Positions 1 to 7,352 of a stretch of 9,129 nt of DNA are shown piece by piece; the stretch's first letter is position 1, and each line of letters opens with the position of its first letter. Origin of the DNA: a bacterium (GTDB lineage Bacteria; Thermosulfidibacterota; Thermosulfidibacteria; Thermosulfidibacterales; JALWSI01); NCBI GenBank assembly GCA_027080315.1, contig JALWSI010000021.1, forward strand, positions 1 through 9,129, in the 5' to 3' direction. The notes beneath the pieces were generated by a model, which ran no database searches, was not told the DNA's origin, and saw nothing but the letters and a program-made list of their open reading frames with translations. The translations under genes were made by a program, and so were the position numbers.

Positions 1-368
1 GCATCCTTGGGCAGTTTCCACATGATCCTCTGCAGGGTGTTGGCCACGTCTGTGGCGGCAGCGTCCAACCCCTTCTTGTACTCAAACTCGGCGGAGATGG
101 CGGCGATCTCGTCGTTGCTCACCGAGGTCACCTTGCGAACAAGGTCAATGGTGCCAAGCTCCTTCTCAATAGGCCTGGCAACCTTGTCCTCCATGTCTCT
201 GGCAGAAGCCCCAGGTTGATAAACCACCACGCTGATAACCGGGTAGTTTGCGTCTGGGAAGAGGTTTAAGGGCATGAGCTTGAAGGATATGGCCCCTAAG
301 GCCACCACCAGGAATATTGCAGCGGTTATGAGGTGGGGCCTTTTGGTGTATGCTTCTACAAAGCTCAT
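1..368 (-). CDS. RND multidrug efflux pump, inner-membrane subunit (HAE1 type), N-terminal part only
   Basis: This is the 5' end of a proton-driven RND transporter, the inner-membrane motor of a tripartite efflux pump; the gene runs off the left edge. About 122 residues are visible of a protein that is usually about 1000. The start MSFVEAYTKRPHL is followed by a first membrane helix at about residues 13-31 and then by LFPDANYPVISVVV and YQPGASARDMEDKVARPIE. This is the characteristic opening of the HAE1 porter domain. The ATG at 368 overlaps the TGA of the adaptor gene (ATGA, 365-368). A GGAG motif (376-379 on the plus strand) sits 7 bases upstream, so the start is well supported. The gene is last in the visible tetR-TolC-adaptor-pump operon and the product is expected to work with the two preceding proteins. 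The substrate cannot be judged from this fragment. Confidence 0.93.
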   Translation of the reverse strand, partial: MSFVEAYTKRPHLITAAIFLVVALGAISFKLMPLNLFPDANYPVISVVVYQPGASARDMEDKVARPIEKELGTIDLVRKVTSVSNDEIAAISAEFEYKKGLDAAATDVANTLQRIMWKLPKD

Positions 369-1486
369 AGGTTCTCTCCAGCGATGGGCTTCACCTTAAC
401 CCCATTGTGGAGCCTTAAAAGGGCGCTGTCGCTGCCCATAACCACCCTCTCGTTGGTGGACAAGGGTCCATTAACCGCCGCCAAGGTGTCGGTTTTACCC
501 AACACCTTAACCGGCACCGCTTTAACTTTATCCTTTCTGTCCAAAACAAAGACCGTCTCTCCCTTTGTGGTGTGAAGCAGCGAGCGGGTAGGCACGATGA
601 AGCCCTTCACATTGCTGGTGACCAAAGCCACATCCAAAGTGGCTCCTGAGGGAAGTTCAAAGGGAGGTCTGGGCAAATCTATCTCCACTGTGGCCAAAGT
701 CCCTACCGTCACGGCAGGATATATCCGGGAGATTGAGGCTTCCAAAGAGGCGCTTTTCTTCTCAGAGGTTGAAGAGAGATAGGCCTTGCCTCCAATACTA
801 AGGTTTTTCACCAGCTCCTGAGGTACTCTGACCACAACCTTGTATCCCTCTTGGGGAGACTCCATCTCAAGAATGACCTTGCCAGGAAGGCCAAGGTCGC
901 CGGGCTCCTGAAGCCTGCGGGTGATCACTCCGTCCATAGGGGCCTTTATTGTGCAATACTCAAGGTTCAACTGGGCTGTTTTAAGTGACTCTTCTAAGGT
1001 GACCACTTTGGCTCGGGCCTCGTCTTTGGCAGCTCGGGAGCGATCAAGCCTCTCTTTGCTCACCGCTTTGTTCTTGTAGAGCATGAGATCTCGTCTGTAG
1101 ATTCCCTCAAGGGTGGCAAAGGTGCTTTTTGCACCTTCAAGCTGGGCCTTGGTGGACTGGTACTGATTCAGAAAGGGCCTGTCGTCCAATCTGGCAAGGA
1201 TTTCTCCCTTTTTAACCCTGTCACCCTCTCTGACCTTCACCTCCAGGATGTGGCCTGTAACCCTGGGGGCTAAACTGGAGGAGACCATGGGTAAGATCTC
1301 TCCCAGATAGTGCTCTTTTACCTCCAGAACCCCCTGTTTAACAGCTGCGGTGAGCACAGGTAGGGGATAATGAGCCGGGGCAGGGGCTTGGGAGATCTCT
1401 GCTTTTCTCTTCTTAACAACTAAGATGCCAGTAACAATCAGCACTGGAATAACGAGAAAGGGGGCAAAACGCCTGATCCTTTTCAT
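365..1486 (-). CDS. HlyD/AcrA-type periplasmic adaptor (membrane fusion protein) of an RND efflux system
   Basis: The periplasmic adaptor links the inner-membrane RND pump to the TolC channel. The 373-residue product has a basic N-terminus and a membrane anchor at about residues 9-25, with no lipobox Cys. The first lipoyl half-motif is at about 76-101 (PRVTGHILEVKVREGDRVKKG). A helical hairpin of about 105-175 follows, rich in Lys, Glu and Gln. The second lipoyl half is at about 178-200 (CTIKAPMDGVITRRLQEPGD), and a beta-barrel and membrane-proximal domain follow. I chose the ATG at 1486 (TGATG overlap with the TolC stop) because AAAGGAG lies 7 bases before it. A GTG at 1489 would add one residue but sits only 4 bases from that site. 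The order TolC-adaptor-pump is that of a complete tripartite exporter. The sequon N-L-S is present but without an acidic residue at -2. Confidence 0.93.
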   Translation of the reverse strand: MKRIRRFAPFLVIPVLIVTGILVVKKRKAEISQAPAPAHYPLPVLTAAVKQGVLEVKEHYLGEILPMVSSSLAPRVTGHILEVKVREGDRVKKGEILARLDDRPFLNQYQSTKAQLEGAKSTFATLEGIYRRDLMLYKNKAVSKERLDRSRAAKDEARAKVVTLEESLKTAQLNLEYCTIKAPMDGVITRRLQEPGDLGLPGKVILEMESPQEGYKVVVRVPQELVKNLSIGGKAYLSSTSEKKSASLEASISRIYPAVTVGTLATVEIDLPRPPFELPSGATLDVALVTSNVKGFIVPTRSLLHTTKGETVFVLDRKDKVKAVPVKVLGKTDTLAAVNGPLSTNERVVMGSDSALLRLHNGVKVKPIAGENL

Positions 1487-2829
1487 CACTCATCTCCTTT
1501 TGAAAGGTTTTCAAGAATGGTGGCGGTGGCCAACCGGTAGGCCACAACCGCGGCGTGGTAGTCGTAGAGGGCCTGGTAATAGCGGGCCTGAGAACCCAGC
1601 CACTGGGCCTGTGCCAAGAGCATGTCTGTAACGGTGCCCGCCCCTGTGGTGTACCTGAGCTTTTCTATACGGAACGACTCTTTTGCGCTCTCAAGGGCAA
1701 GTCTGGCCGCCTCTATTCTGGCCCTGGCCTCTCCAATGGAGGATGTGGCATGGAGAATCTCCTGCTGGGCTTTGAGTTTGGTGTTCTGAAGCAGGTTCTG
1801 GGCCTGGAACAGCTCAGCCTTTGCCTGCCTAACCCTTGCTGAGATTGTGCCTCCGCTGAATATGTTAAGCTTCAAATAGGCCCCTGCCTGCCACACCTCC
1901 TCCTTGCCGTGAAAACCGGCCCCTGCCCTGTCACCGTAGCTGGAAGAGAGGTAAAGGCTGGGCAGGTGTGCACCAAACTCGTAGGAGACCTTTTTTTCTG
2001 CCTCCTCCACCGCCTTCAGTGCCGCCTTCACATCGGGGCGCTTTGAGACCGCCTGCAGGTCAGGCTGGGGGGTGAAGCCCATCTCTTTCAACTCGCCTTT
2101 TAGCTTAAACCGGCTTGTGGGAGACCAGCCAAGAAGGTAGGCAAGGGTTTCTCTTGTGCGCTCCATCAGCTCCTCTGTGGCTACCAGGTCCTGTTTCTGG
2201 GCAGAGACCTGGGTCTCTATTCTCATGAGATCCACCGGGGCCACCCTGCCTACTTTCAGCAGGTTGGCGGTGTCACTACGAACCTTTTCAAGGGCGGTCA
2301 GCGCATCTTTCTGGGCCTTCCTTAGATATCTGAGCTGTACCAACCTGTTGAACAGGTTGGTTACATCGGCCACAAGCTCCTCCTGACTTAACTTTAACTG
2401 GTTAGAACTTATCTCCTCTTCAAGCCTTGAGATCTCCACCTTTCGGGTGATTCTGCCACCCTCGTAGATGGGCAGGTATCCAACAGCCTTCCACTCATAG
2501 ATGTTTTTGCTGAAGGTGGGAGGACGCATCCCAAAGCCCTTGATTGGCACCACCGCTACGGGATCACTTAGCCTGGTGTAGCTGGACTGAAGCTCTATTT
2601 GAGGGAGATGAGCCCCCCATGCAGCTCTTACCCCCTGGTGTTTAGCATTCAAGCCCCACCTGCTGGCCCTGATCACAGGGCTGCACTTCAAGGCCACAGA
2701 TAGGGCCTCCTCAAGGGTCAAAGCCTCTCTGATGGCACAATAGCCTGTGGAGTTTGCCTCATTACCAAAAGCCGCCTGGGCACTGTGAAACACCGTGCAT
2801 AGGGCAAGAATAAAGACCAGCTTCCTCAT
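1486..2829 (-). CDS. TolC-family outer membrane efflux protein
   Basis: This is the outer membrane channel of the tripartite exporter. The 447-residue length is normal for the family. A Sec signal peptide covers about residues 1-19 (hydrophobic VFILALCTVF, then HSAQA before the likely cleavage). Two OEP repeats are visible. The first starts at about residue 36 (ALTLEEALSVALKCSPVI, then GVRAAWGAHLPQIELQSSY). The second starts near residue 265 (RPDVKAALKAVEEAEKKV, then FGAHLPSLYLSSSY). Each has the long coiled-coil helices and the proline-bearing turn into beta strands expected of TolC. The start ATG overlaps the tetR stop (ATGA, 2826-2829). No strong ribosome site is near it (GGGG about 11 bases away), so coupling to tetR translation is likely. 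Just after the signal peptide, residues 24-28 read E-A-N-S-T, an extended bacterial N-glycosylation sequon, notable because an oligosaccharyltransferase gene lies nearby. Confidence 0.93.
   Translation of the reverse strand: MRKLVFILALCTVFHSAQAAFGNEANSTGYCAIREALTLEEALSVALKCSPVIRASRWGLNAKHQGVRAAWGAHLPQIELQSSYTRLSDPVAVVPIKGFGMRPPTFSKNIYEWKAVGYLPIYEGGRITRKVEISRLEEEISSNQLKLSQEELVADVTNLFNRLVQLRYLRKAQKDALTALEKVRSDTANLLKVGRVAPVDLMRIETQVSAQKQDLVATEELMERTRETLAYLLGWSPTSRFKLKGELKEMGFTPQPDLQAVSKRPDVKAALKAVEEAEKKVSYEFGAHLPSLYLSSSYGDRAGAGFHGKEEVWQAGAYLKLNIFSGGTISARVRQAKAELFQAQNLLQNTKLKAQQEILHATSSIGEARARIEAARLALESAKESFRIEKLRYTTGAGTVTDMLLAQAQWLGSQARYYQALYDYHAAVVAYRLATATILENLSKGDE
1494..1500 (-). promoter_or_regulatory. 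Ribosome binding site deciding the adaptor start
   Basis: On the minus strand AAAGGAG lies inside the last codons of the TolC gene. It is 7 bases from the ATG at 1486 but only 4 from the GTG at 1489. The spacing favours the ATG and the TGATG junction, typical of translational coupling. Confidence 0.6.
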
Positions 2830-3419
2830 CTTTTCTCTATCCCCTTCAAGACTATATTCATAAAACCATCCACCGTCTCTTCCACATCCCAGCCCTTCTC
2901 CTTCAGAAGCGAGAGAATCACCGTTGACTGGATGAAGCCAATCACCGCACGGGAAGAGAGATCCAGATCAAGCTCTGGGATAAGGCTGCCCTCTTCAATC
3001 CCCTGCTTAAGAATATCTTTCAACTTCTCCTGAAAGTTGCTGATCAACTGAAACATGACCTCTTTCAGGTCTAGATCGTTGTGGTGTATGGCCTCTGAGA
3101 GGAGAACAAGGGTGATGCCCCGGTTTTCACTCAGGAATCTCAAAGTGGCCTCCATGAGGCCCCTGAGACGCTGAGGGGCACTTTCGCCCCCCTCAGCCGC
3201 AGGAATCACCTCCTCTTTCAGCCTGGACCACACGTAGCCGTAGAGGGCCAGCAGAAGCTCTTTTTTGGAATCAAAGTGGCGGTAGATGGCAGGCTCACTG
3301 ATGCCGAGATGCTCCGCTATTTTCCTTATTGTGAGGGCGTGACATCCACCCTCTGCAAGCAGCTCTAAGGCCACCTGCATGATCTGCACCTGTCTGGGTT
3401 TAAGCTTCGCCTCAACCAT
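2826..3419 (-). CDS. TetR/AcrR-family transcriptional repressor, likely regulator of the efflux operon
   Basis: This is a DNA-binding repressor of TetR type, 197 residues, a normal length. The N-terminal helices (QVALELLAEGG, about 15-25) lead into the helix-turn-helix at about 29-54 (LTIRKIAEHLGISEPAIYRHF, then SKKELL), which matches the family closely. The remaining helical part, about 60-197, is the ligand-binding and dimerisation domain and is not assignable to a ligand. The first ATG is kept because residues 8-20 form the expected first helix and the next Met (residue 14) would cut it. No ribosome site precedes the ATG. It is the first gene of the efflux operon and overlaps the TolC gene by 4 bases. 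An inverted repeat lies over its own promoter, so autoregulation of the whole operon is the likely mode of control. The efflux ligand or inducer is unknown. Confidence 0.93.
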   Translation of the reverse strand: MVEAKLKPRQVQIMQVALELLAEGGCHALTIRKIAEHLGISEPAIYRHFDSKKELLLALYGYVWSRLKEEVIPAAEGGESAPQRLRGLMEATLRFLSENRGITLVLLSEAIHHNDLDLKEVMFQLISNFQEKLKDILKQGIEEGSLIPELDLDLSSRAVIGFIQSTVILSLLKEKGWDVEETVDGFMNIVLKGIEKR

Positions 3420-3578: not shown

Positions 3579-4055
3579 CTACCCTATCTTAACCTGAAAT
3601 CTGCAGCTTTCGCCGCCGGCACCTTGGCACTCCACCTCTTTCACCTGAACCTTTTTGCCTGTGGCAAGCTCAAAGAAGCCAGCAATGTACCCGGCAAGGG
3701 GATAACAGCTTGGTTTCTTTCGCGTTTTTTCCAAGCTCTGGATTAAAATGTTCTCTTTTACCGTTACCTCGTACTCTTCTCCTTTCTTTTCCACACTCAT
3801 GTTGCCCCAATTGCCTGCTTTAAAGGCTACAACCATGGCTCCAATAAGGTCTTCTCCTTCAAGACCAAGCTTCTCTTTTATTGCCGAGGCACCTTTTTCG
3901 CCGGCTTTTTTACCGCCGCTGTATAGGATTCCTCCCAACCCAAAGCCTGCAATCTTGAGAACAGAGTCGTAAAGGTTTGATAATCCTTCTTTGTCTATTA
4001 GAACAGAGTCCTCTTTGATCATGTTCTTCACTTCACTCAGTGTCTCGTTATTCAT
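3579..4055 (-). CDS. Stand-alone V4R (4-vinyl reductase) domain protein
   Basis: This is a 158-residue soluble protein made of a single V4R domain, a small-molecule-binding fold also related to the Bet3 subunits of eukaryotic TRAPP. The C-terminal signature is clear: SCYPLAGYIAGFFELATGKK (residues 116-135) followed by a V-x-V-x-E-x-E-C-like strand and GGESCRFQVK. It has the three cysteines typical of this part of the domain (C117, C143, C151), which could bind metal or cofactor. The N-terminal half has a Gly-rich stretch at about 37-57 (GFGLGGILYSGGKKAGEKG), as in other V4R proteins. No DNA-binding, GGDEF or kinase domain is fused, unlike many V4R proteins. The start is supported by AAGGAGG 7 bases before the ATG. 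It follows the small GTPase by 13 bases in the same direction, so the two are very likely co-transcribed and may act together; that link is inference. The ligand is unknown. Confidence 0.85.
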   Translation of the reverse strand: MNNETLSEVKNMIKEDSVLIDKEGLSNLYDSVLKIAGFGLGGILYSGGKKAGEKGASAIKEKLGLEGEDLIGAMVVAFKAGNWGNMSVEKKGEEYEVTVKENILIQSLEKTRKKPSCYPLAGYIAGFFELATGKKVQVKEVECQGAGGESCRFQVKIG

Positions 4056-4062
4056 CCTTATT

Positions 4063-4069
4063 CCTCCTT
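4063..4069 (-). promoter_or_regulatory. Strong ribosome binding site of the V4R gene
   Basis: AAGGAGG on the minus strand overlaps the last base of the GTPase stop codon and lies 7 bases from the V4R ATG. It is one of the best Shine-Dalgarno matches in the window, suggesting the V4R protein is made in good amount from the bicistronic mRNA. Confidence 0.7.
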
Positions 4070-4593
4070 CACATGTTCTTCATAACGAGTTCCACCAGCT
4101 CAAGAAGGACATTTTTTACGCTTTCTTTATCTTTGGCCACGCAGGGTATCACCTTTATCCCGTCGTTCAGATCAAGATATGCTCTGATAAAGTTGGGAGA
4201 CCATGCATCAGGGAGATCCTGCTTGTTCGCAGCTACCACATATGGAGCTCCAACCTTGGTATGAAAGAAGTCTATTATTCTTCGTGCTCTCTGTAAGCTT
4301 TCCCCCCTGGTGCTGTCCACCATCATAACCGTTCCCAAAGCCCCTTTTCCAAGAATGTCCCACATGAAATCAAATCTTTCCTGCCCCGGAGTTCCAAATA
4401 GATGGAGTACCAGATTGTCGTCTATGGTTATTCTTCCAAAGTCCATGGCCACGGTGGTCTCTTCTTTCACCTCAAGCTCATCCGATTTCTTAACCTTCTT
4501 CTCCGTGGAGACCACCCCTATCTCACTGATGCTCTTTATGAACTCTGTTTTCCCAGAGGCAAAAGGTCCTGTAACCACTATCTTAACATTCAT
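4069..4593 (-). CDS. Small Ras-like GTPase (COG2229/MglA-like)
   Basis: This 174-residue cytosolic GTPase has little outside the G domain. G1/P-loop is GPFASGKT (residues 9-16). The switch I region has the conserved Thr pair in EETTVAMDFG (44-53). G3 is FGTPGQERF (66-74), where the usual Asp of D-x-x-G is replaced by Gly; from memory this is normal in the COG2229 branch. G4 is NKQD (123-126), specifying guanine, and G5 is likely CVAKD (151-155). In characterised relatives such as MglA the GTPase acts as a polarity or localisation switch with a roadblock-type GAP (MglB). No roadblock gene is seen here; the adjacent partner is instead a V4R protein. The ATG at 4593 has GGGAG about 9 bases upstream and the P-loop begins at residue 9 as expected. 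The exact process it controls cannot be told from the sequence. Confidence 0.9.
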   Translation of the reverse strand: MNVKIVVTGPFASGKTEFIKSISEIGVVSTEKKVKKSDELEVKEETTVAMDFGRITIDDNLVLHLFGTPGQERFDFMWDILGKGALGTVMMVDSTRGESLQRARRIIDFFHTKVGAPYVVAANKQDLPDAWSPNFIRAYLDLNDGIKVIPCVAKDKESVKNVLLELVELVMKNM

Positions 4594-4985: not shown

Positions 4986-7352
4986 ATGGCCAAAAAGAGG
5001 CGGAAGAGAAAGAAGGCAGAGGTGCCCAAGCCTTCTGAGGCAAAGTGTAGAAAGGGAGACTCCCCCGTCTCAAGGATAAGGGAAGGGTCCCAAGAAGAGC
5101 CTCAGAAGGGGAGAGCCACCACTGCCTCCACCATCAACACTACAACAGAGATTCTGGAGAGAGACAGGGTTTTTCTGAACAGATGGTCTGTATGGGTTAT
5201 AGCCTTTTTTATCACCTTCTCTATTGCTGTTGGGGTGCGTTGGCATGATGTGTCGGTGTGGAATGCAAGGTACAAAAACGAGTTCTTCGTCAAGCAGAAG
5301 AGACCTATATTTACAGGATATGACGCCTTTCTTTTTGCAAGGAAGGCCAGGGATATTGCCGATGGCAGATACACTCCTCAGGATAGATTGAGAACCGTTG
5401 CGGGAAAATACGCTTATTGGTCCGATGGATGGAGTGGTCCCTTGCATGAGGTTGAGAAGACAAGGAAGCCTCTTCCTGCCTTGCCTTTGGCAGGAGCCAT
5501 TGCCACAAAGCTGAGTTCTTTGCCCAATGAATGGGTGTTTAGTCTGTTCCCCATAATTGTTGGCAGCTTCATAGTGCTCGGTTTTCTCCTATGGGGTTCT
5601 CTGTTGGGAGGAGTTTACACTGGGATAGGAGCGGCTCTTTTGGGCTCGTTAGCTCACCAGTACTACTATCGCACCAAACTTGGTTGGTTTGACACCGACT
5701 CTCTGAACTTCACCTTTGCCCTTGTAGTAACCTATCTTTTGGCCAGAATGCTTCTAACCAAGGATAGGAAGCGTGGGTTGATCTGGGCAGTTCTTGCCGG
5801 TGTTTCGTTCTTTCTCTACGGCTGGTGGTGGGGGGCAGGCAACGCCTTTCTGCTGCCCTTTCTCTTGGCAGGGGTGATAGTGGCCTTGATTGGAGAGCCT
5901 GGTAGATGGAAGGAGAGGATTACTCAAGCCGCTCTGGTTTATGTCTGCTACGCTCTTTTGTGGTTCTTATGCACAGGCTCCTTCAACGTAGTTCTTGATC
6001 CAATATGGGCCTTTGTGTCAAGGTTTAAGGTGTATTACGTCAGTGTGAAGCACGTGGCTGCTGAGGGAGGGGTCTTCCCCTCAATCTCTCGCTCCATCTC
6101 TGAACTCACCCCGGAGAAGCTCTCCAGTGTCTATCAGAGGACCTGGGGTTCTCCCGTAATATTCTGGCTCTGCGCTGCAGGGGCGGTGCTTATGGGCTTT
6201 AGAGAGTGGAGAAAAGGGTTTCTGTTGGCTCCTGTGGCTGTACTGGGGCTTTGGTGTTTTAGGTCGGGGGCGAGATTTGTGCCTTTTTTGAGCCTGGTGT
6301 TGGCTCTGGGTGGAGGGTATTTAGCCTATCTTTGCTACGAGGGTACCATAAGGCTCTTCAAAAATAGGGGCTTAGCCATGATCAGGTTTGTTTCTCCGCT
6401 GATCATCTCAGCAGCTTTGGTCTGGATACCAGCCAAACGGGACTACAACTATCTTCCCGTTCCAATAGCCTTATCCCCTGTACCTACTGCCTTTCACAGG
6501 CTGAAGGCGGTTGCTCCACAAGATGCCGCGGTATGGACCTGGTGGGACTACGGCTACCTTATTCAGTACTGGAGTGGTTTGGGAACCCTTGGAGATGGTG
6601 GATCCCAATTGGGCCCCACCTCCTACTTTTTGGCCTTGGGTATGTCCACACCTGATCCAGTATTCTCTGCACGGCTTATGCGATTCTACACCACAAGAGG
6701 GTTTGACCAGGGCTTTGACACCCTATCCTCTGTTCTTGGCAGCGAGAGAGAGGCCATGCTCACAATAAAGGATGCCATGAAGCTGGGTCCACAGGGTATT
6801 GAGATTGTTGTAAAAAAGCACAAACTTCCCTTAGGTGACTGGAAGGAGTTCTTCTTTCCCACAAGGTCGGTTCCTGTCTATCTGGCCTACACAAAGGATA
6901 TGATTCCCAAAGGTGGGTGGTGGTACTACTTTGGAACCTGGGATTTGAACCAGAAGAATGGAACAAGACCAACAGTGTATCAGGTGGACTGTTCTCTTAC
7001 CAGGCCTGGGATCTACCAATGCGCTAAAAACACAAAGCTCAGTGTCCTGGCCGGGGTTGCTGAGGTGAATGGTAGAAACATTCCCCTTTCAGAGATCACG
7101 ACGGTGATTGCCAATCGTCCTGAGGTTAAAGACTTTCCCCAGTATTCACGTTCAAGGTTGAGAGCCGTTATTCAACAATATGGAAGAAACCGGTGGAGGT
7201 TGGTGCTTCTCTCAAAGGGTTTTTACTCTTCTGTGTTCTCAAAGATGTTTCTTGCCAACACCTACGATCGTAGGGCCTTTGAGCCTGTGATCATCTGGAA
7301 TCCCTACATCCAGATCTGGAAGGTGCTGGATCCTGACAGGCAGAAGACTTAG
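4986..7352 (+). CDS. stt3: Single-subunit oligosaccharyltransferase, STT3/PglB family
   Basis: This membrane enzyme moves a lipid-linked glycan onto Asn of N-x-S/T sequons on the periplasmic face. It has 788 residues, somewhat longer than Campylobacter PglB (about 713). A basic cytosolic N-terminus of about 65 residues (KKRRKRKK at 3-10) precedes the first membrane helix (about 67-85). Catalytic elements appear in order. First is GYDAFLFARKARD with D113. Next is RTKLGWFDTD with R229, D236 and D238. SISE follows at 370-373 (E373, the SVSE/TIxE-like loop), then GARFVPF with R430, WWDYG at 519-523 and DGG at 537-539. These match the metal- and sequon-binding residues of PglB, so the enzyme should be active. 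About 13 membrane helices lie between residues 67 and 480, and a periplasmic C-terminal domain follows. GGGGAGG (4969-4975) precedes the ATG. No glycosyltransferase or flippase gene is nearby, and it converges with the pseudouridine synthase gene, 2 bases apart. Confidence 0.92.
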   Translation: MAKKRRKRKKAEVPKPSEAKCRKGDSPVSRIREGSQEEPQKGRATTASTINTTTEILERDRVFLNRWSVWVIAFFITFSIAVGVRWHDVSVWNARYKNEFFVKQKRPIFTGYDAFLFARKARDIADGRYTPQDRLRTVAGKYAYWSDGWSGPLHEVEKTRKPLPALPLAGAIATKLSSLPNEWVFSLFPIIVGSFIVLGFLLWGSLLGGVYTGIGAALLGSLAHQYYYRTKLGWFDTDSLNFTFALVVTYLLARMLLTKDRKRGLIWAVLAGVSFFLYGWWWGAGNAFLLPFLLAGVIVALIGEPGRWKERITQAALVYVCYALLWFLCTGSFNVVLDPIWAFVSRFKVYYVSVKHVAAEGGVFPSISRSISELTPEKLSSVYQRTWGSPVIFWLCAAGAVLMGFREWRKGFLLAPVAVLGLWCFRSGARFVPFLSLVLALGGGYLAYLCYEGTIRLFKNRGLAMIRFVSPLIISAALVWIPAKRDYNYLPVPIALSPVPTAFHRLKAVAPQDAAVWTWWDYGYLIQYWSGLGTLGDGGSQLGPTSYFLALGMSTPDPVFSARLMRFYTTRGFDQGFDTLSSVLGSEREAMLTIKDAMKLGPQGIEIVVKKHKLPLGDWKEFFFPTRSVPVYLAYTKDMIPKGGWWYYFGTWDLNQKNGTRPTVYQVDCSLTRPGIYQCAKNTKLSVLAGVAEVNGRNIPLSEITTVIANRPEVKDFPQYSRSRLRAVIQQYGRNRWRLVLLSKGFYSSVFSKMFLANTYDRRAFEPVIIWNPYIQIWKVLDPDRQKT

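Follow-up and report, generated by a model that had tools for sequence, protein, structure and literature searches.

A bacterial genome in which a small GTPase gene lies directly beside a gene for a stand-alone V4R protein raises the question of whether the two products act together and, if so, in what kind of system. The TRAPP Bet3 family has been suggested to derive from prokaryotic V4R (PMC2253512), and a preliminary description of this DNA took the pair for a possible bacterial counterpart of the Rab–TRAPP module. We analyzed the window (the whole stretch of 9,129 nt that contains the pair), nine genomes of the phylum, and a sample of 386 genomes in which this phylum is included. In our best reading, the locus represents a variant of the MglA/roadblock/DUF4388 module that includes V4R as a predicted ligand-sensing accessory subunit, perhaps tied to type IV pili. 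A search of the open-access literature, with subscription papers outside its range, returned no paper describing a GTPase–V4R pairing.

The GTPase–V4R gene pair

Both minus-strand open reading frames are real (Table 1). Orthologues are present in related genomes, with 61–75% identity for the GTPase and 57–68% for V4R, and dN is much lower than dS wherever dS is computable, so the pair of ORFs is not a chance occurrence. The motifs first reported for the GTPase, the 13-nt gap that separates it from the V4R gene and the ribosome site of the latter were all recovered. Upstream, the GTPase gene is flanked by a divergent oligosaccharyltransferase-like gene; downstream of the V4R gene lie a TetR gene and an efflux operon. 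No further gene of the 9.1-kb window clearly belongs with the pair.

Table 1. Features of the GTPase–V4R locus (window coordinates)
Feature	Position	Strand	Basis
Stand-alone V4R protein, 158 aa, complete PoxR/Bet3-type fold	3579–4055	-	Pfam, AlphaFold model, fold matches
Zinc-type motif of V4R, C117-x22-E140-x2-C143-x7-C151	3603–3707	-	Alignment
AGGAGG ribosome-binding site of V4R gene, directly after GTPase stop codon	4063–4068	-	Junction sequence
MglA-family (COG2229/CvnD-type) small GTPase, 174 aa	4069–4593	-	Pfam, PDB relatives, motifs
G4 motif NKQD, residues 123–126	4216–4227	-	Sequence, orthologue alignment
G3 region FGTPGQERF, residues 66–74, Gly at usual Asp position	4372–4398	-	MglA alignment
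G1/P-loop GPFASGKT, residues 9–16	4546–4569	-	Largely invariant in five orthologues

The flanking genes were also annotated. The oligosaccharyltransferase (788 aa, 4986–7352, plus strand) is a bacterial protein of the STT3/PglB/AglB type, whose match to the PglB model (1e-37) falls far under the model's cut-off and thus marks it as a divergent member. The minus-strand region 3–3419 has the layout of a typical efflux operon: a TetR regulator gene comes first, then genes for TolC-like, AcrA-like and RND pump proteins, annotated by eye except for TetR.

The GTPase belongs to the MglA family

Pfam assigns the GTPase to ATP_bind_1 (9e-21) and Ras (4e-9), both above cut-off, and the solved structure that it matches best is Thermus MglA (6e-11). 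It is a small single G domain that, as in the MglA family, lacks the Asp of the G3 DxxG: G67 aligns with a Thr of MglA (3t12) at the position occupied by Asp in Ras and Rab, and the FGTPGQ stretch is kept in four relatives. GTPGQ stands in place of the Rab DxxG, and the chain ends in ELVMKNM with no Cys, i.e., without the hypervariable, prenylated tail of Rab proteins. Stronger matches outside the phylum include nine copies in one large genome, which by inference are of the conservon type, and many GTPases preceded by DUF4388 or DUF4388-like proteins. The MglA relationship, the G3 Gly, the Cys-free tail and the outside matches together identify a COG2229/CvnD-type member of the MglA family. 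Rab identity is ruled out by the G3 Gly in the MglA alignment, and the initial Rab-like label is replaced accordingly. The DUF4388 neighbors and the NKxD motif would further place the protein in Group 5 (PMC4316618).

MglA is regulated by the roadblock protein MglB (PMC11016934). The preliminary description saw no roadblock partner, which holds within the 9.1-kb window and fails for the genome, where two roadblock proteins are encoded elsewhere. One of them, the roadblock gene coupled to the GTPase at the level of the genome, is located on contig C168, away from the pair; a separate MglB-like gene is found on C159, along with an MglA-like gene on C139. A roadblock gene adjoins the GTPase module in two related genomes (G006 and G007).

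V4R has a complete sensor-type fold

The V4R protein, encoded by the single V4R gene found in the source genome, matches Pfam V4R (PF02830) at E=2e-16 (60.2 bits against a cut-off of 31). This match covers only residues 96–156, yet the whole chain forms one V4R/Bet3 fold. The AlphaFold model (11 rows; pLDDT 87.5, pTM 0.86) is matched best by the ligand-binding domains of MopR, DmpR and PoxR (Z ~17 over 153–158 residues), followed by MJ1460, TRAPP Trs/Bet3 subunits and Asgard TRAPPC3 (Z 13–15). The proposed relation to Bet3 is borne out at the level of fold, with Z scores of 14.3 for mouse Bet3, 14.7 for 3cue chain E and 14.8 for MJ1460. At the sequence level, the best PDB match of the V4R profile is MJ1460 (7.5e-9), and no TRAPP chain appears at E up to 5.

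The spacing of the C-x22-E-x2-C-x7-C motif is identical in all 11 V4R proteins aligned. The zinc-type C-E-C-C motif of PoxR and MopR has the same spacing. By analogy with PoxR and Thor-TRAPPC3 (PMC10933270), the motif would serve in zinc binding.

In TRAPP, the exchange site is formed mostly by the longin pair, with the C-terminus of Bet3 pushing against switch I (PMC10152722). The V4R protein has the Bet3 fold and lacks this switch I-clashing tail: the chain stops at residue 158, which is matched to residue 168 of Bet3, and no Bet3-like extension follows.

Gene neighborhoods within the phylum

The GTPase–V4R pair occurs in two of the nine genomes, the source genome (G000) and G007, which belong to different families. 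Conservation of the pairing, the check proposed at the outset, thus extends to these two genomes (one of them with a fused pair) and not to the rest of the phylum. In G007, from the same order and another family, the pair is a single 339-aa GTPase–V4R ORF that reads on where the window has TGA. On one strand, roadblock and DUF4388 genes precede this ORF, which is convergent with pilM; the last ~50 codons of the roadblock gene are at L042 8357–8509 and the remainder is on a second contig, which overlaps the first over 329 nt (98.8%) and also carries a membrane-protein gene and thrS–infC. V4R may be translated separately there as well, since its part of the ORF is still preceded by an internal ATG and by a GGGAGG that resembles a ribosome site. 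The fusion comes from one metagenome assembly and may be due to a single base change or to an error in the consensus. AlphaFold modeling of this natural fusion (17 shallow unpaired rows) gave two domains joined by a low-confidence linker (pLDDT <50), with pTM 0.56 and no confident interface, an outcome that at this depth speaks neither for nor against binding.

In the source genome, contig C145 carries a DUF4388 gene beside a membrane-protein gene, the product of which is 40% identical to its G007 counterpart, with pilM ~3.2 kb away. With the roadblock gene on C168 and these two genes on C145, V4R is the sole partner still adjacent to the GTPase. A replacement of roadblock by V4R is ruled out, as both the source genome and G007 keep a roadblock gene.

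Other genomes of the phylum separate the two genes. G006 shows the order pilM–roadblock–DUF4388–GTPase with no V4R, and G002 has the GTPase with V4R absent; both count against the module reading. In G003, G005 and G008, V4R lies beside pilM in convergent orientation, and no GTPase of this type, roadblock or DUF4388 gene was found. Among these three, dN is 0.04–0.10 against a dS of 1.3–1.5 (dN/dS ~0.03–0.07), indicating purifying selection and hence some role of V4R without this GTPase, perhaps on the pilus side. In G001, thrS–infC and pilM are close together with no module genes between them. The G003 pilM gene beside V4R (L048:7739–8812) contains an in-frame TAA and is therefore split there.

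V4R, GTPase and roadblock genes beyond the phylum

V4R was found in 86 of the 386 genomes, and a GTPase-profile match in at least 239 (matches listed to E ~6e-6). In the flanks of the best loci, among the matches listed, the two genes are neighbors only in G000 and G007, which speaks against a general V4R–GTPase pairing across bacteria. A strong COG2229-type GTPase is encoded in 16 genomes, 9 of which have a V4R match, as do 77 of the 370 others, kinship being ignored in this comparison.

A second phylum, that of G241, was picked for holding the nearest outside V4R, not for its operons. The V4R subfamily is present at high score in 12 of its 25 genomes. Most V4R genes of this phylum are not near a GTPase. 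Two genomes carry one-strand runs of module genes: in G403, a 395-aa protein, the GTPase, a roadblock-like protein (139 aa), a roadblock protein (120 aa) and V4R; in G405, an MglA-type GTPase, a 386-aa protein, V4R, a 182-aa protein, a roadblock protein, a 111-aa protein and DUF4388. Neither has a pilM match near V4R. Two V4R–roadblock neighbors in this phylum compare with 0.05 expected by chance. The subfamily forms a clade with support in a tree of V4R proteins; G403 and G405 branch deep in it but, owing to long branches, without support for or against an ancestral state of the GTPase-linked copies.

The 182-aa protein of G405 (L162:6545–7093), between V4R and the roadblock gene, is Cys-rich and without matches in Pfam or the PDB. 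One stretch of it, GCFRGAAEFLL, looks like the tail of a V4R protein, an assignment to which profile comparison gives no support. Elsewhere, a different, generic V4R gene directly precedes a roadblock gene in a 6.6-Mb genome (G271:C91, L230:126–1221), on a contig that starts just upstream. It is the one V4R–roadblock neighbor in the sample outside the source phylum, against 0.2 expected, and is thus not significant alone.

Comparison with known systems

The FGTPGQ-type GTPase, the small roadblock protein and the DUF4388 neighbor are common to MglA–MglB systems (including COG2229/Group-5-like GTPases beside PATAN/DUF4388) and the CvnA–D conservons. The present system differs from these in having a V4R protein as neighbor or fusion partner of the GTPase, in that no histidine kinase was found, and in that the roadblock gene of the source genome lies away from the window. 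With the V4R sensor domains of PoxR, MopR and DmpR/CapR, V4R shares the fold and the zinc-type motif; unlike them, it has no AAA+ or DNA-binding domain and occurs alone or fused to the GTPase. Archaeal MJ1460 (2OSD/2OSO), its best PDB profile match, is likewise a single-domain, stand-alone V4R protein.

The TRAPP core with Rab1/Ypt1 (Bet3/TRAPPC3, Trs31 and the longins Bet5/Trs23) and Asgard TRAPPC3 have in common with V4R the Bet3-family fold (PMC2253512, PMC10933270), and the module, like TRAPP–Rab, combines a small GTPase with a roadblock protein. It differs in that the GTPase is not a Rab, V4R has no Bet3 C-terminal tail, and roadblock takes the place of longin. Of the proposed Rab–TRAPP counterpart, the fold and the company of a GTPase therefore stand, whereas the claims that roadblock is missing and that the GTPase is Rab-like do not. 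In the Asgard archaeon MK-D1, TRAPP- and GTPase-type genes are generally not in operons (PMC10933270). Here, bacterial operons and one apparent gene fusion unite V4R, roadblock and small GTPase, so that small bacterial proteins offer a direct test of whether the Bet3 fold was in contact with small GTPases before eukaryotes arose.

A proposed dispersed MglA-type module and its alternatives

The module reading is built on direct observations: which genes are present and in what order, the fusion ORF, the V4R fold and its motif. We give about an even chance to a reading in which the pair belongs to a dispersed MglA-type module and V4R senses a ligand and regulates the GTPase–roadblock complex. 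Such a module would comprise a membrane receptor-like protein, roadblock, a DUF4388 (PATAN-like) adaptor, the small GTPase and V4R, and in this phylum would be linked to the type IV pilus protein PilM. Roadblock would act on the GTPase as MglB does on MglA (GAP and/or GEF), and V4R, predicted to bind a small hydrophobic ligand, would contact the GTPase–roadblock complex and render its nucleotide state or output ligand-dependent. Judged solely from proximity to pilM, the module would probably act on type IV pilus activity.

The functional link between GTPase and V4R that was originally suggested gains support because the pair is kept, in fused form, in another family and V4R occurs in GTPase/roadblock operons of a second phylum; an obligate link is opposed by the persistence of V4R in three genomes without GTPase, roadblock and DUF4388. 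That same persistence under purifying selection, together with the convergent V4R–pilM arrangement there and in G007, is what favors a downstream or parallel position of V4R, as an effector or PilM-side sensor modulated by the GTPase module instead of a regulator of nucleotide state. We consider this unlikely, given that V4R adjoins the GTPase and not pilM in the window and that the V4R loci of G403 and G405 are free of pilM matches. Equally improbable is an incidental adjacency, in which two unrelated genes go back to a shared ancestral locus and the loss of the stop codon in G007 is recent and without function. The patchy pairing in the phylum, its absence outside the phylum in the 386-genome sample (best loci, among the matches listed) and the surviving GGGAGG and ATG in G007 are consistent with such a history, against which stand the independent V4R–GTPase–roadblock operons of the second phylum and an adjacency kept in the window after other module genes had moved away.

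An exchange-factor role of V4R, alone or with roadblock, as TRAPP acts on Rab, is the least credible of these alternatives, and we regard it as very unlikely. The Z scores of Bet3/TRAPP subunits (12–15) speak for it, as does the G403 run, where GTPase, two roadblock-type proteins and V4R would amount to the three protein classes of the TRAPP–Rab core if roadblock is longin-like. The GEF role specifically proposed for V4R is nonetheless unsupported, because the longin pair makes most of the TRAPP exchange site (PMC10152722); the rest of that site involves a Bet3 tail that V4R does not have, the profile search returned no TRAPP chain, and the GTPase is not a Rab. A bacterial TRAPP-like core, with V4R and a longin-like roadblock dimer in complex on the small GTPase and controlling nucleotide exchange, is a similarly long shot; if true, the three-part plan of TRAPP–Rab predates eukaryotes and exists in bacterial operons.

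Possible accessory proteins of the module

The uncharacterized membrane protein (L141:5770–6753 and L060:557–1471, 40% identical) adjoins DUF4388 or roadblock genes. Inspection by eye suggests a receptor-like protein with a HAMP-like region, which may be the module's sensor. DUF4388-type proteins encoded before GTPases (L141:5063–5770, L042:7613–8338, L043:7543–8256, L098:602–1423 and L102:476–1501) have in common, across phyla, a basic C-terminal tail, e.g., GLLRRLINKIRGL and SLVNRIINRIRGM, possibly a membrane- or GTPase-binding helix.
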